Origin: Niabella agricola
GTDB lineage: Bacteria > Bacteroidota > Bacteroidia > Chitinophagales > Chitinophagaceae
Length of the DNA stretch: 64,000 nucleotides
NCBI RefSeq assembly: GCF_021538615.1
Contig: NZ_JAJHIZ010000003.1
Span: 1,612,001-1,676,000, forward strand
Reading direction: 5' to 3'
Every line of letters starts with the position of its first letter. Position 1 is the first letter of the stretch. The translations under genes and the position numbers were made by a program. The notes under the pieces were generated by a model. The model had not been told where the DNA came from. It saw only the letters and a list, made by a program, of their open reading frames with translations, and did not search any database. This document shows positions 25,477 through 42,364 of the stretch, in pieces.

Positions 25477-25482
25477 TTGAAG

Positions 25483-25514: not shown

Positions 25515-25564
25515 TTTTTTCCGGTTTTGACGGCAATGTTTTTTAAAAACAGGTAAATTTAATC

Positions 25565-25572: not shown

Positions 25573-25642
25573 CGCCCATTCTTTGATCTTCTGACCGGCT
25601 ACTGCCTTCCATGCAGCAGACCATTGGAGATGAACAAAGATT

Positions 25643-25716
25643 GGTCCGGTAGCTCAGCTGGATAGAGCAACTGCCTTCTAAGCAGTAGGTCATTGGTTCG
25701 AATCCAATCCGGATCA
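25643..25716 (+). tRNA. tRNA-Arg (anticodon TCT)
   Basis: A 74-nt cloverleaf. The acceptor stem GGTCCGG pairs with CCGGATC (one G-T pair), with discriminator A; CCA is not encoded. The anticodon stem-loop CTGCC-TTCTAAG-CAG carries TCT, and the T loop is GGTTCGAATCC. It decodes AGA/AGG. A terminator follows at 25721 and an integrase gene begins 216 bp downstream, so the 3' end may be the attachment site of the neighbouring element. Confidence 0.96.
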
Positions 25717-25720
25717 CTGA

Positions 25721-25747
25721 GACGCATTACAGAGTGCGTCTTTTTTG
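25721..25747 (+). terminator. Intrinsic terminator after tRNA-Arg
   Basis: GACGCA and TGCGTC arms with an 8-nt loop, followed by TTTTTT. It starts 5 nt after the tRNA. Confidence 0.85.
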
Positions 25748-25822
25748 TTTAAAATGCAGTCCCAATAAGCGTTTTAACAAAAAAAGCATTCCAAGCTACA
25801 TCAAAGCACTTCAAAGGAAAAA

Positions 25823-25873
25823 GAGGGCCCTTCGGGGGCCTAAAAGGGGACCTATCTTCGTAGGCCCCCTCGA
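25823..25873. promoter_or_regulatory. GC-rich, mutually exclusive hairpins upstream of the integrase
   Basis: GGGGGCCTA (25834-25842) is a perfect 9-bp complement of TAGGCCCCC (25861-25869). The same right arm also pairs with AGGGGACCTA (25845-25854, one mismatch), so the two structures exclude each other. It sits about 60 bp before the integrase ATG and could modulate its expression or mark an element end. The 13-mer at 25861-25873 recurs at 42467-42479. Confidence 0.5.
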
Positions 25874-25931
25874 ACTAATCGCGTACACAAGGGGATGAAA
25901 GGCGTCTTTTTTAACGCTAAATTCTTTTTGT

Positions 25932-27503
25932 ATGATTTCAAAAAATCAAACACTGAACATTTTGTTTTACCTAAAAGGTAAAAAGGCCACCAAGGATGGT
26001 AAGATTCCTATCTATGTCCGCGTGACCATTGACGGCTACCGGGATGAATTTTCTACCGGTTGTAAAGCATTTCGAAACTCTTGGGACAACGACCACAAAC
26101 AAGTGTTAGCCTCAGCTCCTGATCACCGGCAGATCAACAAAAAACTGCTGAGAATTGAGGTCGATTTACAACGTCACTTTGACCTCATCCAGGCAAAAAA
26201 AGGTATTGCAACACCGCAATCTGTAATAAGTTCTTATCAGGCTCCCGTAAAAGCCGAACAGGAACGATTGGAAAAAATAGAGAATGCATCCTTCTCTCAA
26301 ACCCTCGATGAATTAATGGACTCCTATATCAAATACAACAAAAAGGCGTTGGCTGCGTCCAAAAACGGCAAACAACCGGGCATCGGACTATTAGCCCTAT
26401 TTGAGCAGGAAAAAGCTGCACTGGAGGAGGCAACTGAAGCACTTGTAAAAAAAGTAAATCCAATATTTGATAAGAAAGATCGCCCTAAAACGCTGTTGCT
26501 TGCCTTAAATCATTACCTCCTAGGGTTTCTCCAATACTGCTATGCAGGAGAACGCTCTCCAAACACTTTAGAGAAACTGATCGGTCGCAAAAGACGATAT
26601 CAGGACTTCATACAGTACCGCTATCTAACCGACGATATCCCTTTAGATGCAGTTGAGTCAACATTTATTGAGGAGCTGCTTAAACACCAAATCACACTGT
26701 ACAAGGTTGGGCAAAATGCGGCCATGAAATATTGTCAAACCATAAAGGAAATTATGGAAATCGCTGCCGCCAAGAAATGGGTACCATTCAATGTTTTTTC
26801 GACATTTAAATGCCGCTACAAACGGCCAAAACATGACTGGCTCAATTTTGAGGAATGCCTGGCTTTAGAAGCGTATAATTTTGATACCATAGAACTCAAT
26901 GAAGCGAGGGATATGTACATATTTCAAAGCTTCTGCGGCTTCGGGTATGCTGAGCTAGAAGCCTTGCGACCCGAAGATGTTATAACGGAGTTCGATGGAA
27001 AATTGTGGATAGGCCGCGATCGACAAAAAACCGGAGTAAATGAGTCTGTGCCTTTATTACCTGTTTGTTTGAAAATTATCGAAAAGTATAAAAACCATCC
27101 TGTTTGCCTGCGCACGGGAAAATTATTACCTGTACCGAGTAACCAGCAATATAACAGATTATTAAAAGAGATCGCCCAGATACTGAATTTCAAAATCGAT
27201 CTTAGAACTCATAAAGCCCGCTTTTTTATGGCGAATGTTGTGACCCACAATCAAGGAGTAGATTTGAAAACCACAGGCAAGATACTGGGTCAGAAATCAA
27301 TCAAAACAACAGAAATCTATGTCGAACCGGACAAAAGTATTATTAGTCAAAATATGGCAATGGTCGAAGAAAAATTATTTAATGACGACGGCTCATTTAG
27401 GGGAAAACACACAATTCCCCTCTCGAAAGAAAAGCCCAAATCGGGCATCACCGTATATAGTAGCAATATCTCGGTGAGCTATTCGCTAAAAAGGGTATCA
27501 TAG
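25932..27503 (+). CDS. Tyrosine recombinase / integrase (Bacteroidota ICE type)
   Basis: A 523-residue site-specific recombinase. An Arm-type N-terminal domain (about 1-90) is followed by a SAM-like core-binding domain (about 190-300) and a catalytic domain (about 305-470). Catalytic residues visible are H427-K-A-R430 and nucleophile Y463. The box I Arg is replaced (GFG336-338, where GLR is usual), and the box III His is Gln454 (LGQ). Loss of the box I Arg is known for CTnDOT-type integrases. An internal insertion (about 140-180, Lys/Glu-rich) lengthens it. It lies downstream of tRNA-Arg and faces away from it. Probably the integrase of the accessory element. Confidence 0.86.
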   Translation: MISKNQTLNILFYLKGKKATKDGKIPIYVRVTIDGYRDEFSTGCKAFRNSWDNDHKQVLASAPDHRQINKKLLRIEVDLQRHFDLIQAKKGIATPQSVISSYQAPVKAEQERLEKIENASFSQTLDELMDSYIKYNKKALAASKNGKQPGIGLLALFEQEKAALEEATEALVKKVNPIFDKKDRPKTLLLALNHYLLGFLQYCYAGERSPNTLEKLIGRKRRYQDFIQYRYLTDDIPLDAVESTFIEELLKHQITLYKVGQNAAMKYCQTIKEIMEIAAAKKWVPFNVFSTFKCRYKRPKHDWLNFEECLALEAYNFDTIELNEARDMYIFQSFCGFGYAELEALRPEDVITEFDGKLWIGRDRQKTGVNESVPLLPVCLKIIEKYKNHPVCLRTGKLLPVPSNQQYNRLLKEIAQILNFKIDLRTHKARFFMANVVTHNQGVDLKTTGKILGQKSIKTTEIYVEPDKSIISQNMAMVEEKLFNDDGSFRGKHTIPLSKEKPKSGITVYSSNISVSYSLKRVS

Positions 27504-27517
27504 TAATATCCGATTTA

Positions 27518-27548
27518 TTTAGCCCGCAAGTCGCGGGCTAAATTTTTA
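27518..27548 (+). terminator. Intrinsic terminator after the integrase
   Basis: A perfect 10-bp stem, TTTAGCCCGC and GCGGGCTAAA with loop AAGTC, followed by TTTTTA. It lies 15 bp after the integrase stop and before the end of the convergent protease-STAND gene. Confidence 0.88.
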
Positions 27549-27642
27549 TGGAGATACGAGAAACACATTAATCCTTAAGCAATCGTGAGTTCGGTAAATT
27601 ACACTCGCCCACGGTAACTTGTACTCCTATCTTATCAAAGTG

Positions 27643-30600
27643 CTAGCTGTGTGAAGCCGACAATATCCCCTCCCTGGTAATAAAGGCAATTGAAGAACCT
27701 TTTTGAATCATAATATCCAAAATGGACAAAAAGTCTCTACGCAGTGTACTATCAGAAACAATAGTTCGACGGTGTTGAAAAAAGATCCTTTGAATATACT
27801 TTTCAGCAAAATAATTCAGCAACCAATCGGCCCCTTCAGCATTATTGATCGTCAATAGAAGTAATTCAATACTCCTAGGGAACAAGGCCTGGAAGCCTAT
27901 TCCTCCTAATAATTTAACAACACTTCCTGGCATATAGTGTCCCAAATAAATAATAACATCTTCATAAAAACTAGGAGTAGCGTCGACTGCAGCCCAACTT
28001 CTGGCAGAGTCCTTCCAATCTATGCTAAGCAATAAAAACGGCAATAAAGCCAGCCGCCTAGACTTATAGGTTTTAGCCATAAGAATTTTCCAAAGCTTGC
28101 TAAACCTATTGGTATCACAATTTAGACGATCCTGCGTAAGAATAGTTTCCTTTAAAGATCGCCTGATCATTTCAAAAGAATCATCCGTCAGATGTGACAG
28201 CGTCCCTTCCTCTTCCACAAGTACAAATTCTATTAAAGAGAGAAATAATTGTATTGCCTTTTCCTCATCCAAATGCTTAAGTACCAATGTACCAAAATGC
28301 TTTTGAAAATGAAGAGCGCCGTCGTAATATTTGTGCTCATTATAGTAATTCTCTCTATGACGCTCTTTTTTATAAGTGTCATTCATCAAAAAAGCCAAAT
28401 ATGCGATCAGAAAAGCGAGGCCTTCCTCGTCAATTCGCTCACATTGTGACAAAACGAGAAATGCCTTATCCAAATATATTCGATTAATGTAGTCTACTCT
28501 AAAGTTATAATCAAACGCAGCATTTAACTTCCTTAATTCGTCTTCCGAGATGGCCACCTCTCTTTCTTTAAGGTGTGAAAGATCACTACAACTCATTTTC
28601 AATAATGATCGGAAACATCCAATCGCAATACTTGGATCGGATATCCAAAGCTCGCGTGCGGCCTTCTCGAACAATGGTTGACTTAAGCCATCTGAAATTG
28701 GCAGCAAGTGAATCAGATCAATTATCAATGCTCTAATTTTTATTTTATCACCTTCCGGAATATCAAGTCTAAGAAGTATCGTTATGGATTCTATGGCAGG
28801 ATCTTTATCAAATAAGCCGTACGATGCCGAAAGCATGGCCAAAGGATCAGTGTATTTCGCCCGCTCCTGGTTAGTAATTGCGCTACATATGTTGATGATC
28901 GCACTAACTATCCATTCTTTTTCTGATGCTGCCAGCTTTGACCAATAATAATTTATACCTATTAATGAAATCCCAGCAGGTGAATTGTGCCCTTTGTCTA
29001 TCAATATATCATCTTCAGATATAGCCCGACATATTGAATAGTAGTCCTGCCATTCATCAAAAGTATTTGCTTCTTGGCGCCCTTTGTCTAAAATCTGGTT
29101 GCACCAATACCACACCTTCAGTCCCTGGTTCTCTGGACTTTTTTTCATATCACTAGCAATCTTTGAATCTTTGGGAACTACAGGCTCGAATATTACCCCC
29201 TTCACTTGCTCATCTTCATACTCGCGCGCCAAATAATTTCGCCGATCCATTCTAAACAACATATTTGGCCAGTGGTCGAACTCTAGGCCATTGTCGGCAC
29301 CCAAGGAAATTTCCTGTTGATAGGAGTCAATTATTGCTATAACGTCTTTGTGAAAATCCTCGTAAAAAGACATCTTGAAAATTAAATGCTCCAGATGGTC
29401 AAGTCGATGCGGAAGATTCTTGGATGCGAATCTTTCATCACGGAATTTTTGACGCTCGGCATTAAACTCCATCATCAGAAAGATATTTTGTTCCGAAAGT
29501 CGTCGTTGGAGATCCCACAGCAAAAATTCTTTACAACGAAATAAAGGGATCATATTCTCCCTAACAACAAATGGATAAGCCATAGAGACACTAGCTATTA
29601 TCGCAGTTGTTGCTACAGTTTTACTCTCTTTGTATAATCTATCAATAATTTCAGCCAGGAGTAATCGGCTTTCCCTCGTATTGTCAACTGCAAGACCAAG
29701 TACATAATGCTCTAAAGCCATCAACATGCTCTGTAATAAATCGGGAGTTGACATGTGACCTCTGTACATTTTCCAGATCTCGTCATCTCCAAATTGTGTG
29801 ATCATCGTTTCATCGCTGAGTCTAAACGAAATCGTCTTAATAGTGCCCGATTTTATAACTTTAGGGTGTTTCATATAAGAGACGATTGTTTCGTTAAGCA
29901 GCTCAATTATAAAGCCGACAGCTTCGTGGGTATGATACCTTAGTAAATGCAACAAGGGGGTTTGTAAAGCGCTTGCGGGACTATATTCTCTTTTGGTACC
30001 GGGATTCAGTCCAAAGTATCTTTCACTTTTATCAAGAAATCCTTCTTCTATATCAACCATATCAATAAGAGATTTCCCGATTGGAATTGTCTGCTTCGGC
30101 TGTTGAGGTGGTGCAATCCATTCAAAGCGGCAAACCGACATCATCAATTCGGGCATTGACATACATAAATGTTCGCTTGCTCCAAAGGACAAAACTATTT
30201 CAATTACTTTTTCGTGAAAATCCTCTAGATGATAATCAAGAAGACTACGGTTGCGGGATCGATCTTGGGCGCTTTTACTCACGAAGTCAAAAGAGCTCTT
30301 TATAAAGGTTGCAGTGAGATCAACGTCTATTGGACAAAGTCTAAAAAGCAACTTAACCAATCCGACTGCCAGCATATCATTTGGACTCTCCTTGTCCTCT
30401 TTATACTTCGCCTTATGTAATTCGATCAATTTTGATGCGAGACTTAACGCATAAGAGATACAATTATTTGTCAGCTCCAGGGGGGCGTTTTGCCAATCAA
30501 GCAATAGGTATGAGTACAGAAAGTAATTGGACGAAACCTGTTCGAAATTTTCATCGACGAATCTAATTACAGCTAACCATCCTGGGCCTATCGGCAGTAA

Positions 30601-32625
30601 GCTGCTACTTGTCAAATACTCCCGGTCGTCATGATAAGATGGTTCAGCTAGTCTGTCGCCGACAATTTTACAACCAGTTCTTAGTAAATGGACAACCTTT
30701 TCAAATAAAGCTGCCTTGCCTGCGAGCAAAAGTGCGCTATTCGAGTGAAGAAACTGGTAACAGGCATTCGAATTTAGCAATGCCGTAAGTGCTTCATTTT
30801 TCCAATGTTCTTCAATTTTTCCGTGTTCGAGTATTTTGAGTGATATATCGGCTGCTTTTATTGGTGTTGTTCTGTAAAGTTCCTGTAACCAAAATCTGAA
30901 ACCTCTACGGACCGCATAAGAATTCCCTGCTCTAGAAAAACAATTTTTTAGATTCCCCTCTGATTCGACGAATAACATCTGAATATGCCTGACCAAAGCC
31001 CAATCCTCAAATACATCGTGGGAGGGCGCGTATTGCTTGATACCTATACTATCGGAGGATGAGACGAGTAAATTATCGGAAAGTAAGTTGTTTAAAATTG
31101 CCGGATCTACATGTTCCCTTAATGGTATATAAGGTGTAATTTGCTTAGCTCTTTCAATAGCAATCGTTTGAAAAACGATTTCTCTTGCGTGATTATCTTT
31201 GCGAATAAGCCGATCCCAAAGTTTGATTTTCAGGCCGGTCTCGTCGATTTCGTCGGGATTGATTTCGTCTTGAATCTGGATGACCTGCTTTAAATAAAAT
31301 GGGGTTCTTATAAACGCTTCAATCTTGGCGTTGCCTAACAGATTTTTAATTTTTTGATGTCTTGCAATTAACGGTGCTAATTCTTCAGTTGTCAACAGTT
31401 CAAGGGTTACACGGGCGCTCTTTATTTTTGATTCATTAATTAGGCCAAAGGCAGTTTGACCGAGCGCGTAAGTCCTAATCGATAAGATAACTTTGAGACC
31501 AGGGTACCTTTCTGGCAACCGTAGGATATCTTTTAGAATTTCGATCTGGCCACTCTCAATTGCTTTTTCCCCACTATCGATGTAGATAATTTTTAAACCA
31601 GACAGATCCTTACTATTTAGTAGCCGATCAAATTGCTGGTTGATATTTAGTGACGCCAACAATTCTGTTGTGCTATTTCGACATATCTGCGCACCGCTAA
31701 AGGAAATAATCTTAGCATTGCTGATATGTTTAAGATGCTTCAGCAACATTTTACAGAATGTCGATTTACCAACACCTGCTATTCCCGAAATAAGTACCGC
31801 GTCGTTGTTTTCCAATAGAGCAATCGTTTGAGACATCAATACTTTTCTCTCAATGTGAATATTGCTGATTTCTTCATCAATATTACTCAGGACATCTGCG
31901 CTATTTCTTTCAAGTACTTCGTAGTTCTCAATTAAGCTTGGATCAGTCTCTATAACTATCGGTGGTTCCGGCGGTAGTTGCGCTAAATGTAACAGCGACT
32001 CTAAAGCTTTTATATTTACACCCCTAAATCGCTTCCACTCCTCAAAATGCGTAACAATGCCTAAAAGATAAACGTTACCGCCAGCGACAAGACATATTCC
32101 GCTACCTGAAAACCCTTCTACTGTTAATTCTGTAAGGTTTGTTTCTGATTCAAGGGCTGATTCTAAAAAAATTGTATTATCTACAAGAGGAGGCAGCAAT
32201 GATGTATTCACCCTAATTGGGGCATGTTCAGGAAATCCTTTGGGAAAACCATAGAATACTGTTTGCAACTCACCCCCATTTTCACTTATAAGGCCAATTG
32301 GTGGTATTGGCTGGTAGAGTGTCTCCAAGTCAGATTTTGATACGATAATTAATGCAATATCCTCGGATTCATGATAAATAATCTTGTCCTTTATAGTAAG
32401 ATGGTAAATCGTTTGTCCATTACCTAAATGAACAGATATGTTTAATGGGTTCGTCTGAAATCGCCCATCTTTTCCTATTAAGCAGTGTTTTGCTGTAATT
32501 ATATAGATTCTCCCATCTTCATTTTTCGGCAAAAAAAGAATCCCGGATCCTTCAAGGTTATCCTTGACAACTATTTTTGCGGCAAGTTTATACAGTGTTG
32601 CTGGTATTATAGGATTTTCGTACAT
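27643..32625 (-). CDS. Trypsin-like protease fused to STAND-like P-loop NTPase (AVAST-like defence protein)
   Basis: 1660 residues. Residues about 12-215 form a trypsin-like serine protease: His47 in TAKHC, Asp89 in EDIALI, Ser173 in GFSGSG. A P-loop NTPase follows, with Walker A G281-IAGVGKST289 and a Walker B-like IIYID346-350, then a winged-helix-like region. More than 1000 residues of helical, TPR/HEAT-like character complete the protein. This order is that of STAND sensors with a protease effector, as in AVAST antiphage proteins. An MBL-fold gene ends 12 bp upstream. The gene is more AT-rich than the core chromosome, which suggests transfer. No membrane segment is seen. The trigger and protease target are unknown. 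Confidence 0.8.
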   Translation of the reverse strand: MYENPIIPATLYKLAAKIVVKDNLEGSGILFLPKNEDGRIYIITAKHCLIGKDGRFQTNPLNISVHLGNGQTIYHLTIKDKIIYHESEDIALIIVSKSDLETLYQPIPPIGLISENGGELQTVFYGFPKGFPEHAPIRVNTSLLPPLVDNTIFLESALESETNLTELTVEGFSGSGICLVAGGNVYLLGIVTHFEEWKRFRGVNIKALESLLHLAQLPPEPPIVIETDPSLIENYEVLERNSADVLSNIDEEISNIHIERKVLMSQTIALLENNDAVLISGIAGVGKSTFCKMLLKHLKHISNAKIISFSGAQICRNSTTELLASLNINQQFDRLLNSKDLSGLKIIYIDSGEKAIESGQIEILKDILRLPERYPGLKVILSIRTYALGQTAFGLINESKIKSARVTLELLTTEELAPLIARHQKIKNLLGNAKIEAFIRTPFYLKQVIQIQDEINPDEIDETGLKIKLWDRLIRKDNHAREIVFQTIAIERAKQITPYIPLREHVDPAILNNLLSDNLLVSSSDSIGIKQYAPSHDVFEDWALVRHIQMLFVESEGNLKNCFSRAGNSYAVRRGFRFWLQELYRTTPIKAADISLKILEHGKIEEHWKNEALTALLNSNACYQFLHSNSALLLAGKAALFEKVVHLLRTGCKIVGDRLAEPSYHDDREYLTSSSLLPIGPGWLAVIRFVDENFEQVSSNYFLYSYLLLDWQNAPLELTNNCISYALSLASKLIELHKAKYKEDKESPNDMLAVGLVKLLFRLCPIDVDLTATFIKSSFDFVSKSAQDRSRNRSLLDYHLEDFHEKVIEIVLSFGASEHLCMSMPELMMSVCRFEWIAPPQQPKQTIPIGKSLIDMVDIEEGFLDKSERYFGLNPGTKREYSPASALQTPLLHLLRYHTHEAVGFIIELLNETIVSYMKHPKVIKSGTIKTISFRLSDETMITQFGDDEIWKMYRGHMSTPDLLQSMLMALEHYVLGLAVDNTRESRLLLAEIIDRLYKESKTVATTAIIASVSMAYPFVVRENMIPLFRCKEFLLWDLQRRLSEQNIFLMMEFNAERQKFRDERFASKNLPHRLDHLEHLIFKMSFYEDFHKDVIAIIDSYQQEISLGADNGLEFDHWPNMLFRMDRRNYLAREYEDEQVKGVIFEPVVPKDSKIASDMKKSPENQGLKVWYWCNQILDKGRQEANTFDEWQDYYSICRAISEDDILIDKGHNSPAGISLIGINYYWSKLAASEKEWIVSAIINICSAITNQERAKYTDPLAMLSASYGLFDKDPAIESITILLRLDIPEGDKIKIRALIIDLIHLLPISDGLSQPLFEKAARELWISDPSIAIGCFRSLLKMSCSDLSHLKEREVAISEDELRKLNAAFDYNFRVDYINRIYLDKAFLVLSQCERIDEEGLAFLIAYLAFLMNDTYKKERHRENYYNEHKYYDGALHFQKHFGTLVLKHLDEEKAIQLFLSLIEFVLVEEEGTLSHLTDDSFEMIRRSLKETILTQDRLNCDTNRFSKLWKILMAKTYKSRRLALLPFLLLSIDWKDSARSWAAVDATPSFYEDVIIYLGHYMPGSVVKLLGGIGFQALFPRSIELLLLTINNAEGADWLLNYFAEKYIQRIFFQHRRTIVSDSTLRRDFLSILDIMIQKGSSIAFITREGILSASHS

Positions 32626-32637
32626 GGGTTTAGTTAA

Positions 32638-33789
32638 TTAAGGCAATAATATTCCGCTATGCGGGCTATCCGGAAAATGAAGACTAAAATTGAGTCTATT
32701 AAAAATTTCAGATCCATCTACAAGAAACATTTCCTCCAATATTTTATTCCGGGTTGTAAAATAGAACCTGTAGTGAGTCGATTTGTTTCTGGCGCTATGA
32801 AGCAAGATGCGCGCAATGCTTTCTTTGTGTGGCAAATTATATCTATTTATTGCGTTGGCTGATATCAAATAGTTGCTGCACTTTATTATGGATAATAGTT
32901 CGTTACTGATATTGAACTTACTGGCATGATGCGACAGCTTTAGTGAATCTACAATTAGTGGGGAACTTTCATTATATCCTAAATTGCGTATTGACTGACA
33001 AATTACCGATGGAAATGCATCTCCCAATAATAAAGAGCTATATTCTTTGGCTCGAAGTAATAAGGCAATACTACTACCATTTGCAACCGAATCATCTTCC
33101 TCATGTTCCACATGAATCACTCTGGAAAATTCATCTATTGTAATGTGATAGTCGTTACCCGACCTTGCGATTTGTCTGCTTTCAGTTTCAACCGCATCTT
33201 TGGCCTTCTCGTAGTGGGCCGAATCTGGTGAAAGAACAATCAGCGAAAGCCCTGCTAATACAATTTCAGTGCACCTTGTCGTAATTGCTTCTTCATTTAG
33301 TTTGTTAGCCTCTTTAAGTTTGGTCTTAAGCGTTAATAGTTGTCGAATACTTACCGCTCCTTGCGGATCAGCAAGAGGCAGATCGAAGTTGATCATCCAC
33401 CTTTCTACCATTTCCAGGAGATCGAAGTCTTTATCATTAACAAACGCCAACAACCCGCCAATATGATCACCATCATAGTGTGTACCAATTACTATATCAA
33501 TTTTTTCCCCGGCATATTTAATTTTTAGTAGCTCTGGTTTAAGAATGGATTTATACGTCTTTACAAACCCACTATCTATTAAAATATTGTAGAATCGATT
33601 ATCTATCGACTCATACCGAATTAATATTGCGTCACCACAAAAAACGCTTAGAAACTTAATCGATATTGAACCTGCAAAATTAAAATCCGATCTGCTTGTC
33701 AAAATCGAAATCACATTTTGGGCTTCTTCTAATTGCTTCTTTTCCTGCATGTTGCAATTTAATTTTATTTTTTCAAAATATGACGCCAT
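32638..33789 (-). CDS. MBL-fold hydrolase partner of the protease-STAND protein
   Basis: A 383-residue metallo-beta-lactamase-fold protein of the ComEC/Rec2-like type. The metal motif is GTHYDGDHIGG near residue 103, with later conserved His in LKLSHHASKFN. No signal peptide or membrane segment. The ATG at 33789 lies only 18 bp after the dnaE2 stop codon; a second ATG at 33750 is possible. It is followed after 12 bp by the protease-STAND gene. MBL proteins accompany some AVAST systems, so a joint defence role is inferred from order and spacing. The enzymatic target is not known. Confidence 0.78.
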   Translation of the reverse strand: MASYFEKIKLNCNMQEKKQLEEAQNVISILTSRSDFNFAGSISIKFLSVFCGDAILIRYESIDNRFYNILIDSGFVKTYKSILKPELLKIKYAGEKIDIVIGTHYDGDHIGGLLAFVNDKDFDLLEMVERWMINFDLPLADPQGAVSIRQLLTLKTKLKEANKLNEEAITTRCTEIVLAGLSLIVLSPDSAHYEKAKDAVETESRQIARSGNDYHITIDEFSRVIHVEHEEDDSVANGSSIALLLRAKEYSSLLLGDAFPSVICQSIRNLGYNESSPLIVDSLKLSHHASKFNISNELLSIIKCSNYLISANAINRYNLPHKESIARILLHSARNKSTHYRFYFTTRNKILEEMFLVDGSEIFNRLNFSLHFPDSPHSGILLP

Positions 33790-33807
33790 GCAGGTTATGA
33801 TAAAGTC

Positions 33808-36800
33808 CTACTTAAAGCTCCTGCTCGGAAACAACTCCCCCTGCACAACCTGCTGTTCCAATGCCTTTTTGGATTTTACACGCGCCGGCAATTCCTTTGG
33901 CTTAGCAGCTTCCTGTAACAACCAGTTCATATTATAGCAGCGTCGGACAACCACGTGAGTAACATTATCTGCTTTCTGCAGCGTTCCGGAAACCATTAGT
34001 AACCGCGAATGCATAATCTCTTTGCGGTAGGTTTTAAACACCGACTGGAACACGACCAGGTTGGCAATCCCGGTTTCATCTTCAATGGTAATAAAACAGA
34101 TACCGGAAGCCGTACCGGGGCGCTGTTTTACCAGCACAAGCCCTGATACGCGAACAAAGGTTCCATCGGGCCATAATTCCAGCTCTTTATTGGCAAGTAC
34201 TTTCTGCCTGAATAGCCTGTCACGTACAAAGCTGACCGGGTGGGCATTCAGGGATAAGCCGGTACTGCTGTAGTCCTGCAATACATGCTCTACCTGGCTT
34301 AGCTGTGGTAATTGCACTTCGGGTTCATGTTCGCTTTCTGAAGGCTGACCTTGAAATAAACCGACCGGCTTATCGGCCAGTGCCGCTATCTGCCACAAGG
34401 AGTCTCTTCGGTCTAATCCCATTGATCTGAAAGCATCGGCATCGGCCAGCCGTTCCAATGAAGCCTGGGAGATACCGATATTATGCAATTGGTCAATAGT
34501 CCGGTAAGGTTGTGTCCGGCTTTTCACCAGCAGCTGCATTTCTGTTTCTTTAGCGCCTCCGACCTGCCGCAAACCTAATCTTACCGCATGGTATTTTCCT
34601 GTAGCTGCTTCCAGTGTACTATCCCATTGCGAAAAATTGACATCGACCGGCCTTACCTCAACACCATGCTTCCGGGCGTCGATAACGATCTGTGCGGGCT
34701 GGTAAAAACCCATCGGCTGACTGTTTAACAGGGCACAGCAAAAGACATCGGGGTAATAATATTTGATCCAGGAAGATATGTAGGCCAACAACGCAAAGCT
34801 GGCCGCATGACTTTCCGGGAATCCGTATGAACCAAAACCCTCCAGCTGTTTGAATACACGACCGGCAAAGTCCTCCTGGTAGCCTCTCTCGACCATACCA
34901 CTTACCAGCTTCTGCCGCCACTGTGTTACCTGTCCCTTCGCTTTAAAGGTTGCCATACTGCGACGCAGCCCGTCCGCTTCAGCCGGTGTAAACCCAGCTG
35001 CAACGATCGCAATTTCCATAGCCTGCTCCTGGAATAGGGGCACTCCTAAAGTACGACCCAGGATTTCTTCCAGTCCCTTCGAAGGATAGCTGATCAACTC
35101 CGGGTTATTTCTCCTGGTCAGGTAGGGATGCACCATGTCCCCTTGTATCGGGCCGGGCCGGACAATGGCCACCTGGATTACGAGATCATAAAAGCAGCGG
35201 GGCCGCAGTCGCGGCAGCATAGACATCTGCGCACGGCTTTCTATCTGGAATACGCCGATCGTATCTGCCTGGCAGATCATATCGTAAACCCGCGGATCAT
35301 CTTCATAAGGGACACTGGCTAAAGTGAGCGTCCGGCCATAATGCTGTTCAATCAGGTTAAAACTTTTGCGGACGCAGGTCAGCATACCTAAGGCAAGAAT
35401 ATCCATCTTCAGAAATCCCAACGCCTCAATATCATCCTTATTCCACTCAATACAGGTACGCCCTTCCATTGTTGCGTTCAGGATCGGGCATAATTCAAAT
35501 AGCTTGCTGTTGGTAATTACAAAGCCTCCTGTATGCTGCCCCAGCTGCCGGGGAAAGCCTTCGTATTCAATTGCCAGCTCTATAGCCTTGCGGATATGCG
35601 GATCTGTTGCCATGAATCCATTCCCGGCTTTGGCCTTTCCTTCGAGCCAGCCAGCCGAAATTTCATAGCCTGACTTTGCCAGGAAATCGACCGCATCCAA
35701 TGATAAGCCCATAGCCTTGCCCACGTCCCGGATAGCCGTACGCCAATGTACCTGTGTTACTGTTGCCACAATACCGGCCCGGTCGCGTCCGTAGGTATTG
35801 TAGATAAACTGGATCACTTCTTCTCTGCGCTCATGCTCAAAATCGATATCAATATCGGGGGGCTCGTCGCGGTCATCGCTCATAAAGCGGGCAAATAACA
35901 GGCGGAATTTGGAGGGATCAACGGAGGTTATTCCTAAACAATAACACACCACGGAATTGGCTGCCGATCCTCTGCCCTGGTTCAAAATCTTTTGCTCATC
36001 CGCAAATTCCCTGTTCTTATTGACGTTAAGAAAGTACGGGGCGTAATTCTTACGCTTCATAAAATCGAGCTCTTCGTGTAAGGACTTTTTAATCTTGTCG
36101 GGGATCACCTCCCCGAAACGTCTCTTTGCGCCTTTCCAGGCCAGCATTTCCAGTTCCTGCTGGGGCGTGCGTCCGCCGGTGGTTAATTCAACCGGGTAAT
36201 CGTACCGCAGCTCATCGAGCGAAAAAGTACAGGCATCAGCGATCTCCTGAGTTCTCCTGATGGCATCGGGGTACTGACGGAACAAGCGGATAATTTCCTG
36301 TTCCGGTTTCAGATAGCGTTCTGCATTCTGGTGTAATCGGAAGCCCGCGTTGAATATTGTACATTTTTCTCTAATACAGACGAGAATATCCTGTAGCTCC
36401 CGCCGCTTCTGATCATGGTAATGCACATCATTGATGGCCACCATCGGCACAAAGCAGGAGTTCGAAAGCTGTGATAAGCGGAACAGCTTTTTTGTATCAT
36501 TGCCCTGGTATGTAAATATTGCGCCCAGGTAAACGTGATTGCCCAATATTCTTTTATATTCTGCGACGGCATCCTTAAATGCCGGCTCAAAATCGTATTT
36601 TTTGTTTAGCTCTGCCGGTGGTACGACAATGAATTTCATGCCCTGGGCATAATCATACACATCTGCTTTATACAGCTCACATTTCCCTTTTTCCGTCCGC
36701 AGGTTTCCTCTTGTGAGCAAAGAGGAAAGCCGGCTATAGGCGGGCCGGTCGGTGGGGTAAGCTAATAAGCTGGGGCCGTCTGCCAGGTCTAACCTGCAGG

Positions 36801-36999
36801 CGGGTATAAACTTGATATGCTTTCCTCGTGCTGCAAGGTGTGCGCGTACGATCCCCGCAAGGCTATTGCGATCGGTGATGGCTATAGCTTTATAGCCCAA
36901 AGCATCCGCGTGCTCAACCAGCTCCTCCGGATGCGACCCGCCCAGCCGGAAAGTGAAGTTGCTCGTCACCTGCAATTCTGTATATCTTAACGCCTCCAT
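33808..36999 (-). CDS. dnaE2: Error-prone DNA polymerase DnaE2 (DNA polymerase III alpha-like)
   Basis: About 1063 residues from the ATG at 36999, the start that matches the family (MEALRYTELQVTSNFTFRLGG); the longer open frame overlaps imuB. The N-terminal PHP domain is followed by the polymerase core, with catalytic acids in PPDIDIDFEHERREEVIQF, then the helix-hairpin region and a C-terminal OB domain (VRVSGLVLVKQRPGT). It is the replicative-type member of the ImuABC mutasome and carries out damage-induced mutagenic synthesis. It starts 5 bp after imuB and is followed after 18 bp by the MBL gene, so the defence pair may share its transcript. Confidence 0.92.
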   Translation of the reverse strand: MEALRYTELQVTSNFTFRLGGSHPEELVEHADALGYKAIAITDRNSLAGIVRAHLAARGKHIKFIPACRLDLADGPSLLAYPTDRPAYSRLSSLLTRGNLRTEKGKCELYKADVYDYAQGMKFIVVPPAELNKKYDFEPAFKDAVAEYKRILGNHVYLGAIFTYQGNDTKKLFRLSQLSNSCFVPMVAINDVHYHDQKRRELQDILVCIREKCTIFNAGFRLHQNAERYLKPEQEIIRLFRQYPDAIRRTQEIADACTFSLDELRYDYPVELTTGGRTPQQELEMLAWKGAKRRFGEVIPDKIKKSLHEELDFMKRKNYAPYFLNVNKNREFADEQKILNQGRGSAANSVVCYCLGITSVDPSKFRLLFARFMSDDRDEPPDIDIDFEHERREEVIQFIYNTYGRDRAGIVATVTQVHWRTAIRDVGKAMGLSLDAVDFLAKSGYEISAGWLEGKAKAGNGFMATDPHIRKAIELAIEYEGFPRQLGQHTGGFVITNSKLFELCPILNATMEGRTCIEWNKDDIEALGFLKMDILALGMLTCVRKSFNLIEQHYGRTLTLASVPYEDDPRVYDMICQADTIGVFQIESRAQMSMLPRLRPRCFYDLVIQVAIVRPGPIQGDMVHPYLTRRNNPELISYPSKGLEEILGRTLGVPLFQEQAMEIAIVAAGFTPAEADGLRRSMATFKAKGQVTQWRQKLVSGMVERGYQEDFAGRVFKQLEGFGSYGFPESHAASFALLAYISSWIKYYYPDVFCCALLNSQPMGFYQPAQIVIDARKHGVEVRPVDVNFSQWDSTLEAATGKYHAVRLGLRQVGGAKETEMQLLVKSRTQPYRTIDQLHNIGISQASLERLADADAFRSMGLDRRDSLWQIAALADKPVGLFQGQPSESEHEPEVQLPQLSQVEHVLQDYSSTGLSLNAHPVSFVRDRLFRQKVLANKELELWPDGTFVRVSGLVLVKQRPGTASGICFITIEDETGIANLVVFQSVFKTYRKEIMHSRLLMVSGTLQKADNVTHVVVRRCYNMNWLLQEAAKPKELPARVKSKKALEQQVVQGELFPSRSFK

Positions 37000-37004
37000 A
37001 TCCT

Positions 37005-38501
37005 TTACGCAAAAAATCCATGTAAAAACCATTCTGGTGTATGCTGGTCGTAATGACCGGATCGGAATAACCAATAACGTCCACCTTCCTCGTCTTCCAC
37101 AACATAGTAATCCCTTACCAGTCCTTGCTCCAGCCACCATTCCCGTTCTATTCTTTCCGGCCCGTCTGCTTTCCTGACTTTATGAATCTTTCCCTGGTAG
37201 ATAAACAGCATGGGCGGATAATCCGGGATAGGCGCCGTTACCTTTATTGCCTCCGGCACTGGTAATAAACAGATTGGCCGCGGACGATCATCACGCCATT
37301 CAGTAGCTGCCGGTTCATCAATAGATTGGGCTGTCTTATAAGAGCGTTCCGGCCAATAGTGCTCGGTGGGTAAATACCGGCTGATCGCCTTTTCGCCAAC
37401 CTTGCCGGCGATCCTGTCCAAAAGATTCGCCAGCTCTGAATTTCCATCCCCATCCCCTAATGCAGCCCAAAGAGTTTCCTGCTCAACGGTAAGCTCATCG
37501 ACTACCGGCGCTTCCAGGATAAACAGCTCTATGCCTAGCCCTGGCCGGATGGTGTCTATTTTTTGTTCAAACAGTTTAAGCAGATGCGGCACGCTGCGTA
37601 CCGCCCTGTTTGTCCCGATGCTCATTTCCTGTACCTGGCCGTCCACCCGGTACGCTTTAAAGATCGCAGTGCGCAATCCTTTATGCTCTTTCAGCAATTG
37701 TACAGACAATTGCTCCAGCAATGTTTTTAAAGCCATGTCTATTGCGGCCCTTGTGCGTACCGGTTCCAGGCAGGGCAGGCGCTGCTGGAAAATAACTGCG
37801 GGGAATACCGGTTGTAAGGGCTCTATAGCCTGGCCTAATGCCTGATCCAGCCTTATGAGCAGCGCCTGACCAAAGCGACGGCGGAGCACTGTTGCAGGCA
37901 TCGACATAAAACTATCATTCCGGTAAAAGCCCAACCTGCGCATTTTTTCGACCATTGAGGGGTCAAGCCGCAGCGCCATCGGCGGCAGCGCAGCAATGGC
38001 TTCATATTGTTTCCCTGCCGGTATAATTTCGTCCGTACCAAAGCGGGCAACGCCCCATGCGCAGCCGATCGTGTCGGCAATAGCAGCTTTTACGTTATAG
38101 CCTAAACCAGCCAGCTTCGTCTTGATGTCTGCCAGGTATCGCGCTTCGCCACCCCAGAGGTGCGGGCAACCACTGATATCCAGGAGCAGGCCATCCGGTA
38201 AATCCAGCGCTACCACCGGGGTGAACCGGAGGCTCCATTCCGCTAAAGTATGCAGCAGCTTTTGCTCTACACCGGGTTTATCATGGAATATCTTCAGCTC
38301 GGGCAGCATAGCCCGGGCATCGGCTACCACCATACCGGGATTGATTCCTTTCTTCAGGGCCACCGGGCTTGCGGCTTTTACCAACATGCGGCCCCGTTGG
38401 GGTACCGCAACGACAAAGGCCAGCGGTTTTAATTCTGGGCGCAGCCGGATGCCTCTTTCGGCAACGAGATTTGGGAACCATATCGATAAATATCTGCGCA
38501 T
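37005..38501 (-). CDS. imuB: ImuB-like Y-family DNA polymerase-related protein
   Basis: A 498-residue Y-family polymerase homologue (MRRYLSIWFPNLVAERGIRLRP). The palm and little-finger domains are recognisable (LLDISGCPHLWGGE and LDQALGQAIEPLQP). ImuB proteins usually lack polymerase catalytic acids and act as a hub that binds the sliding clamp, ImuA and DnaE2. It starts 2 bp after imuA, indicating coupling. The C-terminal part carries a conserved IHKVRKADGPERIEREWW segment seen in the family. Confidence 0.88.
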   Translation of the reverse strand: MRRYLSIWFPNLVAERGIRLRPELKPLAFVVAVPQRGRMLVKAASPVALKKGINPGMVVADARAMLPELKIFHDKPGVEQKLLHTLAEWSLRFTPVVALDLPDGLLLDISGCPHLWGGEARYLADIKTKLAGLGYNVKAAIADTIGCAWGVARFGTDEIIPAGKQYEAIAALPPMALRLDPSMVEKMRRLGFYRNDSFMSMPATVLRRRFGQALLIRLDQALGQAIEPLQPVFPAVIFQQRLPCLEPVRTRAAIDMALKTLLEQLSVQLLKEHKGLRTAIFKAYRVDGQVQEMSIGTNRAVRSVPHLLKLFEQKIDTIRPGLGIELFILEAPVVDELTVEQETLWAALGDGDGNSELANLLDRIAGKVGEKAISRYLPTEHYWPERSYKTAQSIDEPAATEWRDDRPRPICLLPVPEAIKVTAPIPDYPPMLFIYQGKIHKVRKADGPERIEREWWLEQGLVRDYYVVEDEEGGRYWLFRSGHYDQHTPEWFLHGFFA

Positions 38502-38503
38502 GA

Positions 38504-39226
38504 CTAACTTACTTTTTTAATGGCGATAGGTAACGCAGGGGCTTTCTTTGTTGCAATCTCAAAACCGGTTTCTGTCCAATATACCTGCCATTGGCCGGGT
38601 TTACCATTACGGATTTTAGATAATTCTACATTCCAGGCAGGAATGCCTACGCCAGGTATACCGGTTTCCATACTGGGAAGCGGCCGGATGCTCCACCGGG
38701 AAACACAGGCGACATTTCCTGCGGGGCCCTTTACATTCCGGTGAATAAAACCGGTGACATGACTTTTTTCAACCGCAAGCTGCAGCCTGCGGGACTCGGT
38801 AAAGGTCAGCTCGGGTATCTCGCTGATAACTGCTGCCAGTGATCCGCATTTTAATCCTTCTTCAATAATCCAAAGCGCATCTTTTGTATTGGTCGCCTGT
38901 ACAAAGATGACCTGGTCGGGCCGGACGCCAAATGCTTTTAGTGCTACAGGGAACACGGTTCGCTGCCGGCTTATCCAAAGACAGGAGCCTTTACACATCA
39001 GCGTGCCGAGCAGACCTGATATGAAACCGGTGGTCGCGGCTGCTTCGTCTTTTGAATGGCTTAAAAATTCATGCACTGCGCTGACCGGGAAGGTCTGGTT
39101 CGGAAAAGCCTGATTAATTATACCTAAGCCGGTATCCCTGCGTTCCGATTCCAGGGGTACACGCAGCCCCTGCATATCCAGGATCTCCTTTTGTAATTGT
39201 GCTAATATGTCCGGTTTTGTCACCAT
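38504..39226 (-). CDS. imuA: ImuA-like protein of the mutasome (RecA/SulA-like)
   Basis: About 240 residues from the ATG at 39226; the open frame starts 27 codons earlier in the operator region. RecA-fold features are AVHEFLSHSKDEAAATTGFISGLL and IFVQATNTKDALWIIEEGL. In other bacteria ImuA partners ImuB and DnaE2 in SOS mutagenesis. It is the first gene of the run imuA-imuB-dnaE2-MBL-protease/STAND. The divergent LexA-like gene starts 68 bp away, with two palindromes between them. Confidence 0.85.
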   Translation of the reverse strand: MVTKPDILAQLQKEILDMQGLRVPLESERRDTGLGIINQAFPNQTFPVSAVHEFLSHSKDEAAATTGFISGLLGTLMCKGSCLWISRQRTVFPVALKAFGVRPDQVIFVQATNTKDALWIIEEGLKCGSLAAVISEIPELTFTESRRLQLAVEKSHVTGFIHRNVKGPAGNVACVSRWSIRPLPSMETGIPGVGIPAWNVELSKIRNGKPGQWQVYWTETGFEIATKKAPALPIAIKKVS

Positions 39227-39248
39227 TTTCACAAGAAAAATCACGTTT

Positions 39249-39263
39249 GTTACTATTAGTAAC
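39249..39263. promoter_or_regulatory. Candidate LexA-like operator 1 (GTTACT-ATT-AGTAAC)
   Basis: A perfect 6-bp inverted repeat with a 3-bp spacer, in the divergent gap between imuA and the S24 regulator. It lies beside the TATCTTTG -7 box (39265-39272) of the regulator. A second related palindrome follows 23 bp away. Confidence 0.65.
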
Positions 39264-39264
39264 A

Positions 39265-39272
39265 TATCTTTG
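39265..39272 (+). promoter_or_regulatory. -7 promoter element of the LexA-like regulator (TATCTTTG)
   Basis: A perfect TAnnTTTG, flanked on both sides by the two palindromes, so binding of the regulator would block it. A TTTG sits only 15 bp upstream (39246-39249), shorter than the usual spacing. Confidence 0.55.
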
Positions 39273-39286
39273 TTACCAATTATAAC
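39272..39286. promoter_or_regulatory. Candidate LexA-like operator 2 (GTTACCAATTATAAC)
   Basis: An imperfect palindrome that keeps the outer GTTA/TAAC of operator 1, centred 23 bp downstream of it. Two sites about two helical turns apart suggest cooperative binding and control of both divergent promoters. Confidence 0.5.
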
Positions 39287-39294
39287 CATATAGT

Positions 39295-40098
39295 ATGGCT
39301 CTTGCAAAAATTTTTTTCCACCAGAACATCCGTTTTTTAAGGGAGCGGCGGCGCTTCAGCCAGGAGGACTTTGCGCAAAGAATTGGTATTACGCGTGTTA
39401 AACTTCATGCTTTGGAATCAGGTAGAACAAAAAATCCGACAGCGGAGGACTTTGTTAAATTCTCGGAATATTTCAAAATTTCCATTGATGCGCTCCTGAA
39501 AACCGACCTGTCGAAATTGGGGGAAATCAAATTGCGTGACCTGGAGGCCGGAAATGATGTTTATATGAGCGGAGAAAAAATGCGCGTGCTGGCGATCACC
39601 GTTGATAAAAACAACCGGGAAAATGTGGAGTATGTGCCAGTAAAAGCAAAGGCAGGTTATCTAAGGGGGTATTCTGACCCGGAGTTCCTGGCGACATTGC
39701 CAAAGATATCTAAGCCGAATTTACCAAAACATGGCACCTTCCGCACCTTTCCTATTGAAGGGGAATCGATGCTGCCCATACCGGACAACAGCGATGTTAC
39801 GGTTCAGTATATCGAAGACTGGCGAACAATAAAGCCGGGCACTCCCTGCCTGCTTACCTTGGAGGGTGATCCTAGGGAAATAGTGTTTAAAATGGTTACC
39901 GTACAGGGCAATGAGCTGTTACTGCAATCCCTGAACACCGAATATAAACCCTATACCATCCCTGCCGCTGACGTGTTGGAGATATGGAGTTTCTATAGCT
40001 ATGAAACAAAGCAGTTTCCGGAGCCGGCAAGCGAGCTGCAAAGTATCGGGGAGCATGTGAGGCAGATACTGTGTCAACTGCAAAAAGTGAAGAAGTAA
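39295..40098 (+). CDS. LexA-like transcriptional regulator (XRE HTH plus S24 peptidase domain)
   Basis: 267 residues. The N-terminal XRE helix-turn-helix (about 9-62: FLRERRRFSQEDFAQRIGI, then HALESGRTKNPTAEDF) is joined to a C-terminal S24 domain with Ser158 (IEGESML) and Lys199 (EIVFKMV), the self-cleavage dyad. An Ala-Gly bond at A120-G121 (VKAKAGYLRGY) is a candidate cleavage site. It should repress the divergent imuA operon until DNA damage triggers its autolysis. Unlike classical LexA, the HTH is of the XRE (phage CI-like) class. Confidence 0.87.
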   Translation: MALAKIFFHQNIRFLRERRRFSQEDFAQRIGITRVKLHALESGRTKNPTAEDFVKFSEYFKISIDALLKTDLSKLGEIKLRDLEAGNDVYMSGEKMRVLAITVDKNNRENVEYVPVKAKAGYLRGYSDPEFLATLPKISKPNLPKHGTFRTFPIEGESMLPIPDNSDVTVQYIEDWRTIKPGTPCLLTLEGDPREIVFKMVTVQGNELLLQSLNTEYKPYTIPAADVLEIWSFYSYETKQFPEPASELQSIGEHVRQILCQLQKVKK

Positions 40099-40150
40099 GA
40101 CAACGAAAATCACCCTACTATTCAACTCAACCCAATCGTATCGTTTATAC

Positions 40151-40165
40151 TTAGGCAATACCTAA
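40151..40165. promoter_or_regulatory. Inverted repeat upstream of the 563-residue protein (TTAGG-CAATA-CCTAA)
   Basis: A perfect 5-bp inverted repeat with a 5-bp spacer, 20 bp before the start of the next gene. The half-sites match those at 191-204 near the MntR-like gene, but the spacer differs by one base. It could be an operator; the cognate regulator is unknown. Confidence 0.35.
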
Positions 40166-40184
40166 AGCAACCAACCTAAACATT

Positions 40185-41876
40185 ATGATCCCCATCGCTA
40201 TCATTGGCTATACAGACATTTACAACACTGAACTCCCAGAGGATCACTTTTCTTTACTAAGGAATTATCCTACTGATTGGATAATTTTATACCTGTCTAA
40301 AATTAACGCCATCCTTTTTAAAGAGGAACATGTGGGTAAACAAGCAGTAGCAATATTTGAGCAGGTCTTTCTAAAATGGGAACCCCAAGGCCCGAAGTAT
40401 AGAAATCTCTTGAATCAAGTATTGAGCAATGGCGATCAGGCATTTTTCTCTATTCAGTCCATATCATATCTTATAAAGGCTAGTTTAGAAAATTTTCGTC
40501 CCCTTGACGAACATGAAAACGTTGATCTTAAGGTTTTTTATAAAGCGCTTTTTGATACCATACTTATCCACAATACTTTAGTTTATCGAATGGATGATAC
40601 ATCCATTGAAACTCATAAAGGATTGTGGGCTATAGCGATCAGACAGCAAAACTATATACGAGATCTCAACGGCCTTATTTATACAGGTCCTATTAAGTTT
40701 CTGTTGGTCGAACGATACTTTAGTCAGACTTCGGAAGGAAAAGAAGTATTGGTTTCATTTCAAGAAAAAATGGGATTGGGAAACTTCTGGAATTTTGCAA
40801 AGACATTTATGTCCCTCATGGAAAGTGCATTAACGCAAAGCCGGCAAGGAAGCTATATTTTAGAGCGTGAAGACACTCCACCGCAACTGCTGGAACATTT
40901 CTGTTATAAAAAGCAAGACACAAATGGCCCCCTCACTATACACATGGATATCATTCCCCGGCCATTTTATGAAATTGATAATGCGCATCTTGCTGTATTG
41001 GATTTCAGCTATTTCCGATATTTGCTGGATCAGGGTGTATTTTGGATCATCTACAATAATTCCACACTCCGCGATGACAGTCTTCAAAAAGGCTTCAATA
41101 CATTTCAATCCGTTGTTGGCAAACATTTTTTCGAGCAATTTCTGGTCGGCAACTTGTTGAAAGCAATTTACAGGCGACCGCAACACATTTTGCTTTCTGA
41201 TGACCAATTTGGAGATTTCTGGATAAAGCCTAATCACCGCGACATAATCATAGTTGAAGTAAAGATGGCTGATATAAATCCTAAGACCACTGAATTATTT
41301 GATACTGAAAAGTTTGAAAATTTTATACGTGAAAACTATGCAAAATCGAAAAATGAAAAAGGCGGAGCCAAAGGTGTCTATCAACTGATCAGGCAGCTCA
41401 ACCTACTGCAAAGTTTTACTCCAGATGTTCAAAAACGTTTAAAGTTACAATCACTGAAAAATATCACAGTTTATCCAATCATCATATATTCTGACTCAAT
41501 CCTGGATGCCGTCGGAGTTAATGCTTTCGTTGATGAGATATTTCAGAGTGCCAAAAATGCCCACGCTTATTCATTCAAGATAAATCCACTCACAATGATT
41601 GGTGTCAATAATTTATTGGATCATTTCAAATTATTTTATGATGATGCTAACGCTTTACTATCGTTAATTTCCGATTATCAAAAATATTTAATAAAGCGAC
41701 GAAAGAAGTACAGTAAAGCCCCCAACGCCTATGCTTTCTATCAGCAAAATACATCTCTATTTGAATATACTTCCAAAAAGTATCCGGTGGCCAAGAGTAA
41801 TCAATTAGAAAACCTGATTGTTTTTAGAAATCTGCTTAATAGTGGACATTTTGGTCATAGCGACATAAAGCTTTAA
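40185..41876 (+). CDS. Hypothetical protein with PD-(D/E)XK nuclease-like site
   Basis: Not assigned to a named family. 563 residues, soluble, no signal peptide. The C-terminal half contains D344 (FGDFWIKPN) and E358-V-K360 (IIIVEVKMAD), the pattern of a PD-(D/E)XK nuclease core, preceded by a helix with possible Glu317 (HFFEQFLVG) and followed by a helix rich in Lys. The N-terminal 300 residues are helical and of unknown role, perhaps recognition. A 156-residue protein follows 32 bp downstream, probably in the same transcript. A restriction or antiphage role is plausible from composition and neighbourhood; it is inference. Confidence 0.65.
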   Translation: MIPIAIIGYTDIYNTELPEDHFSLLRNYPTDWIILYLSKINAILFKEEHVGKQAVAIFEQVFLKWEPQGPKYRNLLNQVLSNGDQAFFSIQSISYLIKASLENFRPLDEHENVDLKVFYKALFDTILIHNTLVYRMDDTSIETHKGLWAIAIRQQNYIRDLNGLIYTGPIKFLLVERYFSQTSEGKEVLVSFQEKMGLGNFWNFAKTFMSLMESALTQSRQGSYILEREDTPPQLLEHFCYKKQDTNGPLTIHMDIIPRPFYEIDNAHLAVLDFSYFRYLLDQGVFWIIYNNSTLRDDSLQKGFNTFQSVVGKHFFEQFLVGNLLKAIYRRPQHILLSDDQFGDFWIKPNHRDIIIVEVKMADINPKTTELFDTEKFENFIRENYAKSKNEKGGAKGVYQLIRQLNLLQSFTPDVQKRLKLQSLKNITVYPIIIYSDSILDAVGVNAFVDEIFQSAKNAHAYSFKINPLTMIGVNNLLDHFKLFYDDANALLSLISDYQKYLIKRRKKYSKAPNAYAFYQQNTSLFEYTSKKYPVAKSNQLENLIVFRNLLNSGHFGHSDIKL

Positions 41877-41908
41877 AATTATCTTACAGACCAATGAAGG
41901 GTTTGACA

Positions 41909-42364
41909 ATGAAAAGCAAATTGAAAAAAGAACTATCAGCATTCGAACAAATCAAGGATGAACTTAAAAAGGACAGCGTTCTGATACACTCGACCGGATT
42001 TGTTTATAACGACTCTATACACAGTCCGTTGTCATTAAAACAAATCGCATATTTAAAAAACGAGGGATTGCTTACAGATTACAATGAACGGCCAGGAAAA
42101 AAAGACCGCTCAATCCCCGCTTCAATTTATGTTGGAGGGATAAATTGCATTACATTTTTTGTGAAACAGGAAATTGTTGGAGGCGAAGTACACGAACACC
42201 TGCTAGTATATAATCGTGACGCGGGAAATGAGCTTTCCTGTATCAGTAATTTATATTCTGTCACCCAAGATGAAGAGGTCACGCATATGGACATCCGGGT
42301 AGACAAAATTAATGGCTCAATGAATTATGTCACTATAAAACATGATAAAATAACCGGGCTATAA
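41909..42364 (+). CDS. Small hypothetical partner of the nuclease-like protein
   Basis: Not recognised. About 151 residues from the ATG at 41909 (another in-frame ATG lies 15 bp earlier). A lysine-rich helical N-terminus (KSKLKKELSAFEQIKDELKK) precedes a mixed alpha/beta part (ASIYVGGINCITFFVKQEIVGGEVHEHLLVYN). No signal peptide. It lies 32 bp after the nuclease-like gene on the same strand and is followed by a strong terminator, so the two genes form a unit. It may be a regulatory or immunity partner; nothing in the sequence decides this. Confidence 0.6.
   Translation: MKSKLKKELSAFEQIKDELKKDSVLIHSTGFVYNDSIHSPLSLKQIAYLKNEGLLTDYNERPGKKDRSIPASIYVGGINCITFFVKQEIVGGEVHEHLLVYNRDAGNELSCISNLYSVTQDEEVTHMDIRVDKINGSMNYVTIKHDKITGL

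Follow-up and report, generated by a model that had tools for sequence, protein, structure and literature searches.

Gene content and organization of the locus

The window (the whole 64-kb stretch of Niabella agricola DNA analysed here) contains a run of five minus-strand genes in the order imuA-imuB-dnaE2-MBL-STAND, separated by gaps of 2, 5, 18 and 12 bp in the list of open reading frames (ORFs), with a divergent HTH-S24 gene ahead of it. The same five-gene run with the same gaps had been claimed in a preliminary description of this DNA and is borne out by the ORF coordinates. By their order and family signatures the first three genes form an ImuA-ImuB-DnaE2 mutasome, consisting of imuA (38504..39226, its start set by comparison with a chromosomal paralogue), the Y-family gene imuB (37005..38501, Pfam IMS) and dnaE2, also called imuC (33808..36999, Pfam, with the PDIDIDFE motif present). 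ImuA matched its NCBIfam model at E 2.9e-17 with 63.1 of 150 bits, which is under the cut-off, yet it is 59% identical to the chromosomal ImuA. For dnaE2 the ATG at 36999 was checked and taken as the start, the mechanical ORF extending to 37140. The run ends with a gene for an MBL-fold predicted nuclease (32638..33789, minus strand; PADLOC, ComEC fold and alignment) and a STAND gene (27643..32625, minus strand), the 1660-aa product of which joins a trypsin-like protease to an Avs4-like ATPase/sensor.

The annotated start of the MBL gene is doubtful, because 17 of 19 aligned homologues start at approximately residues 29–42 of the window ORF (the exceptions being P0033, with a longer leader, and P0007, which starts later) and because the mean pLDDT per ten-residue block of the structure model is 58–76 in the first 40 residues vs. 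93–97 in the next 60. Translation may instead begin at 33750 or about 33714, so that the gap between dnaE2 and MBL may be 18, 57 (ATG 33750) or 93 bp (GTG 33714).

On the plus strand, the HTH-S24 gene (39295..40098) is followed by two AT-rich ORFs, namely orf563 (40185..41876), with a PD-(D/E)XK-nuclease-like product according to alignment and structure model, and orf156 (41894..42364), which had no match in PADLOC, NCBIfam or Pfam and has no assigned family.

Probable island context and base composition

A tyrosine recombinase gene (25932..27503, plus strand; Pfam Arm-DNA-bind_5 and Phage_int_SAM_5) follows a tRNA-Arg (TCT) gene (25643..25717, plus strand, ARAGORN), a probable integration hotspot. 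In all six genus members compared at this site trpE and the tRNA-Arg were matched, and no match to the region from the integrase to orf156 was found in these six save for a 5' relic of the same integrase gene at the same site in two of them (G005 and G009), similarity to both stopping at 26228, inside the integrase. Sequence further out (42380–44900 of the window) was matched in only one of 17 genus genomes, its own, and so sets no right-hand boundary for the island. GC content is 41% in the integrase, 39% in STAND, and 37% in MBL as well as in orf563 and orf156, while it amounts to 50–53% in dnaE2, imuB and imuA (46–53% if S24 is taken together with the mutasome). This composition supports the earlier suggestion that the last two, AT-rich genes of the run were added to the cassette. 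The AT-rich flanks, the integrase behind tRNA-Arg and the integrase relic in two relatives together suggest that the locus is probably a tRNA-Arg-linked genomic island and presumably mobile.

A 13-bp repeat, TAGGCCCCCTCGA, is present at 25861 and 42467, but it is a weak candidate for att repeats because each copy is a hairpin arm; no 14-mer from 25601–25950 has a second exact copy within the window. In the two relatives the integrase 5' relics lie directly after tRNA-Arg (L079, 6932–7225; L080, 8116–8374), each being followed by a large gene, RHS-repeat-like as judged by eye, with differing ends.

A second, deeply diverged mutasome

The genome carries another imuA-imuB-dnaE2 set at about C3:2975362–2980827. 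Within 18 kb around this chromosomal mutasome no S24 match was found, and its upstream region carries CTAAATATATTAG, a canonical CTAA-N5-TTAG box; a further S24 gene of the genome carries CTAAAATTATTAG, of the same CTAA-N5-TTAG type. In a dnaE2 tree of 18 rows five genus members cluster with the chromosomal copy (support 100/100), which is the genus-type one. The window dnaE2 branches outside nine rows of genus and G017 sequences that form a clade with moderate support (93/89), and its identity is at most 72%. Two genus members (G004 and G013) branch even farther out, and for this reason the claim is limited to the window mutasome being a second, deeply diverged copy, which was probably acquired separately.

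The S24 regulator and its tandem operator

The S24 protein combines a CI-type HTH (HTH_3, E 5.7e-10) with a Peptidase_S24 domain (E 6.3e-7, both Pfam), and residues of the cleavage type are present in its sequence (Ala-Gly 120–121, Ser158 and Lys199), an assignment that we make by analogy with LexA. Two 17-bp dyads lie in the gap between S24 and imuA, i.e. dyad 1 at 39248..39264 (TGTTACTATTAGTAACA, a perfect 8+1+8 palindrome) and dyad 2 at 39271..39287 (TGTTACCAATTATAACC), 23 bp from the first and overlapping a -10/-7-like box of imuA. They support the LexA-like operator facing a divergent S24 regulator that had been proposed from the bare sequence.

TTAC-N5-GTAA occurs once in the 64-kb window, about the level expected by chance, so the count alone is no evidence; the evidence lies in the tandem and its conservation. 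In order to assess the latter, 32 S24 genes were scanned (those of the window, L069 and L148 together with the best 29 other matches in the class, from a listing with matches in 268 of 395 genomes), with thresholds chosen post hoc, after a first look. Tandem dyads at exactly 23 bp were found upstream of nine of the 32, the window's included, against a shuffle mean of 0.01; among the other spacings tested from 17 to 35 bp, one gene had a tandem at 30 bp and the remaining 17 spacings gave none. For seven of the nine the divergent neighbour is imuA or DinB. Four plasmid S24 genes, drawn from five records found, were scanned later, and one of them fits the tandem, at 23 bp only: that of an imuABC cassette on a Dyadobacter plasmid (L283).

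No CTAA-N5-TTAG was found within the 64-kb window, which leaves the S24 gene's own promoter without the canonical operator, and GGA-N5-TCC has 21 matches there, taken as a bare count. A genome-wide regulon drawn from TGTTAYNNNNNRTAACA was rejected, as one-mismatch matches numbered 68 vs. 80 for the reversed control; an additional exact match to TGTTAYNNNNNRTAACA lies at G000:C3:100440–100456.

The protein shares with the non-canonical LexA of Bacteroidetes (PMC8565304, as far as the parts consulted describe it) the HTH and S24 domains, cleavage-type residues, a divergent error-prone polymerase and an N5 dyad in its own promoter, and differs in its site, TTAC-N5-GTAA in tandem at 23 bp rather than CTAA-N5-TTAG. 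In Elizabethkingia, the same source reports in those parts, the repressor encoded by a diverged S24 paralogue bound TTAC-AAATT-GTAA, and mitomycin induced the gene of this repressor as well as that of the divergent polymerase. By analogy, the window S24 looks like a diverged relative of the Bacteroidetes non-canonical LexA that presumably works alike, and we treat it as lying outside both operator-motif groups. The window also has defence genes behind dnaE2, of which no mention was found for the systems in the consulted parts of PMC8565304.

Cargo was also examined at the 29 other S24 loci. No MBL or STAND match was found within 9 kb (13 loci, L240–L252) or 5 kb (16 loci, L253–L268), some of these stretches ending at contig ends and neighbours being judged by eye, with a family scan for L251 only. 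DinB is the next divergent gene in 11 of the 29. Among four plasmid records viewed, three (L283, L285 and L286) have S24 with dinB-dnaE or imuABC. The S24 of the cassette on the Dyadobacter chenhuakuii plasmid (L283, 11849–18726) is the nearest to the window's among those compared (55% identical), and a different gene, for a 158-aa protein of no known family, lies there 12 bp behind dnaE2.

The MBL and protease-STAND pair

The preliminary description had called the last two genes an AVAST-like defence pair, in line with PADLOC matches of both proteins and with a likeness of the STAND protein to Avs4. The latter matched PADLOC Avs4 at E 2.6e-126 and resembles PDB 8dgf (Avs4) over profile positions 222–1646, as expected of an Avs4-type STAND ATPase with sensor. 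In 12 aligned sequences H47, D89 and S173, which we take from the motif to be the protease triad, are invariant, as is the Walker A stretch (G281, G284, G286, K287 and S288). Scores stayed far below the NCBIfam Avs4 cut-off (452.9 of 1500 bits) and also below those of Avs1a and Avs1b (152.3 of 420 and 10.9 of 1500 bits). In place of the N-terminal nuclease effector of AVAST type 4 there are trypsin-like residues, i.e. the N-terminal effector is a protease, and a separate MBL gene is added. Because the NCBIfam Avs4 and Avs1 cut-offs were failed, we use the label 'Avs4-like with protease/MBL effector'. Avs4-type sensors recognise phage proteins.

The MBL protein matched the PADLOC models LmuA, RT-associated MBL and Avs1a, and its nearest solved fold is the ComEC MBL domain (9ic4). 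With a metal motif, and lying 12 bp upstream of a trypsin-like protease fusion with a protease triad, it has the architecture of a gated pair and is predicted by analogy to be a gated nuclease. Its model has low-confidence stretches near residues 141–150 and 201–210, which are at most candidates for cleavable loops over the active site. As described in the parts of PMC12799240 consulted, an MBL gene lies just ahead of a trypsin-like protease fusion, and the protease cuts gating loops of the pro-nuclease; the fusion partners there belong to Hachiman, AVAST (Avs1), Lamassu and DRT systems, whereas here the partner is Avs4-like.

At the other end of the cassette, D344...E358-x-K360 of orf563, which we read as a motif of the PD-(D/E)XK type, is invariant in the 12 proteins found and aligned (orf563 included), and a search with its structure model gave no significant fold match. 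Five homologues at order level had no mutasome match in flanks of only about 1.5 kb or less. No terminator-like site of the plus strand was listed between S24 and the two genes behind it, orf563 and orf156, which are possibly further damage-linked defence cargo.

Promoter- and terminator-like sites

No sigma-70-like site was found on the minus strand from 39195 to 33501, no terminator-like site in the gaps between the genes of the run, and no Bacteroidota-type promoter scoring at least 9/10 from 34400 to the MBL start. On both strands of 25300–42700 there were 20 terminator-like sites vs. 15.2 expected (sd 4.1), the intragenic ones being not clearly above chance. Two promoter-like sites were detected inside the MBL ORF: one fits the Bacteroidota type at 10/10, with its -7 box at 33682, and the other, at 33500–33472, is sigma-70-like with a score of 10/12. 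Both lie beyond those starts with which the conserved core would remain intact, and an internal promoter there is conceivable. Read-through from dnaE2 into MBL is favoured, since no promoter- or terminator-like site precedes the MBL start, and on sequence grounds cotranscription of the two is plausible but unproven.

Recurrence of the arrangement

Homologues of the MBL protein were present in three of 59 near genomes (one of them its own, the others with 33% and 27% identity) and those of STAND in eight of 396 genomes of the order (again including its own), among which the protease end was matched besides the window only in G670 and G590. With the Chryseobacterium STAND as query, four of 395 class genomes were matched, its own included, the other three lacking the protease end. 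A scan of public genomes gave at least 70 MBL loci; in five of 70 listed (L115, L117, L119, L122 and L148) MBL stands in tandem with a gene that matches STAND along most of its length, and one more candidate pair (L109) is interrupted by a contig end. Together with G670, a Haliscomenobacter plasmid (L221) and the window, this makes eight tandem MBL-STAND loci. SOS polymerase genes lie near three of them (window, L148 and L221), or two of seven excluding the window (P 0.003–0.014 under a rough null with hand-set densities, in a small, post hoc sample). The other five had no mutasome match in the stretches viewed, which comprised about 10 kb upstream, as for all eight, and only about 2–5 kb downstream of STAND.

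The preliminary description had proposed a survey for MBL-STAND genes directly after dnaE2 and had taken an adjacency confined to this genome as refuting its reading. The exact arrangement is seen so far only in the window among the loci examined, which counts against cotranscription. The closest pair, that of G670 (58/51% identical), lies in a relaxase/coupling-protein context (L213), where 13 kb of upstream and about 2 kb of downstream sequence contained no match to a mutasome. DnaE-DinB of Chryseobacterium sp. ZHDP1 (L148) is divergent from S24-AlkB-MBL-STAND; one dyad precedes this S24, without the 23-bp tandem, and a second MBL-STAND pair of the same strain (L115) has no SOS polymerase neighbour. 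Eight loci on viral contigs included none with a mutasome match.

Two of these loci hold further genes. The stretch 542–17255 of L148 unites GmrSD/HEC-05, Mrr, DnaE-DinB and S24-AlkB-MBL-STAND-Schlafen, and on the Haliscomenobacter plasmid pHALHY01 (L221, 10935–21228) MBL-STAND is convergent with UmuC, a group II intron gene lying between UmuC and UmuD. A comparison with avs4 of E. coli plasmids was dropped, as the two stretches viewed had no umuDC-type gene and the gene table was incomplete.

Interpretation of the locus

The reading that we prefer, and to which we give an even chance as a whole, is that of an island SOS module with an appended defence pair that is partly raised by damage read-through. 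A tRNA-Arg-linked island would bring its own SOS module, in which the diverged S24 LexA would repress itself and the divergent imuA-imuB-dnaE2 through the two dyads at their 23-bp spacing; an MBL/protease-Avs4-like pair of foreign origin would have been appended at the 3' end of the mutasome, with the nuclease-like orf563 behind S24. Upon DNA damage, RecA-stimulated self-cleavage of S24 would relieve the imuA promoter, and some of the mutasome transcript would continue into MBL and STAND, yielding more of the defence pair, which would still require a phage trigger to act. Upon infection, the STAND sensor would oligomerise and its trypsin-like domain would cut the MBL protein, the freed nuclease then destroying DNA.

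The pair could also be ordinary mobile defence cargo that landed behind dnaE2 and is expressed from a basal or unrecognised promoter, with no useful coupling to damage. Its occurrence in a relaxase context (L213), on a plasmid (L221) and elsewhere without a mutasome points that way, as do the AT-rich cargo at both ends of the cassette and the lack of the pair in all 29 other S24 loci; the missing promoter- or terminator-like site ahead of the MBL start and the S24-AlkB-MBL-STAND order of ZHDP1, with DinB-DnaE divergent, argue against it, and we regard it as a serious candidate that falls appreciably short of an even chance. Quite close to an even chance, and compatible with the other readings, is that Bacteroidota plasmids and islands carry both SOS polymerase cassettes and defence genes, which meet there without selection for joint control. 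Three plasmids on which S24 accompanies dinB-dnaE or imuABC (L283, L285 and L286) agree with such shared residence, and so does pHALHY01, where UmuC and STAND, being convergent, are not cotranscribed, which speaks against joint control. Linkage at three of eight tandem loci (two of seven without the window) at the P values above speaks against this account, subject to the same rough null and small post hoc sample. A role of MBL and protease in DNA damage processing with the mutasome, instead of phage defence, has their adjacency as the sole point in its favour, and the Avs4-like sensor region of about 1400 residues, together with the five of eight tandem loci at which no mutasome was matched in the sequence viewed, makes it highly improbable.

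DNA-damage-induced immune operons are already known through CapW/BrxR, CapH+CapP and CapK+CapS (PMC13373217, consulted in part). The preliminary description knew of no account of antiphage genes induced by damage together with mutagenic polymerases, and no report that places defence genes in a mutasome operon under LexA or S24 control was recognised among the titles and starts of abstracts listed from the open-licence PMC literature. As at the window locus, these regulators are damage-responsive repressors beside immune operons. In the parts of PMC13373217 consulted, they are not LexA/S24 proteins and have no tie to a mutasome, whereas the window has both; the terms LexA, S24, SOS and Avs are absent from the main text of that paper, as is SOS from that of PMC12799240. 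We tentatively propose, while holding it on the whole doubtful, that an island LexA-type switch controls a single damage-inducible operon for mutagenic translesion synthesis and for an Avs-type pro-nuclease/protease, which would be a fourth route of damage control over immunity. If true, a positive loop is possible, in which damage by the nuclease would increase the killer together with the tolerance polymerases. If read-through occurs, phage immunity would be coupled directly with the SOS response through the element's own repressor, with a joint increase in mutagenesis and abortive killing.

The conserved 23-bp tandem operator may also serve as a motif for locating other damage-controlled cargo. 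For instance, at L251 (G398:C14, 1516–8660) an S24 gene carries two perfect dyads at the 23-bp spacing, and behind it, in the same orientation, come two D12 methylases, an AAA protein and McrC, i.e. a McrBC-type restriction operon, which, judging from this layout, may be under a LexA-like switch.
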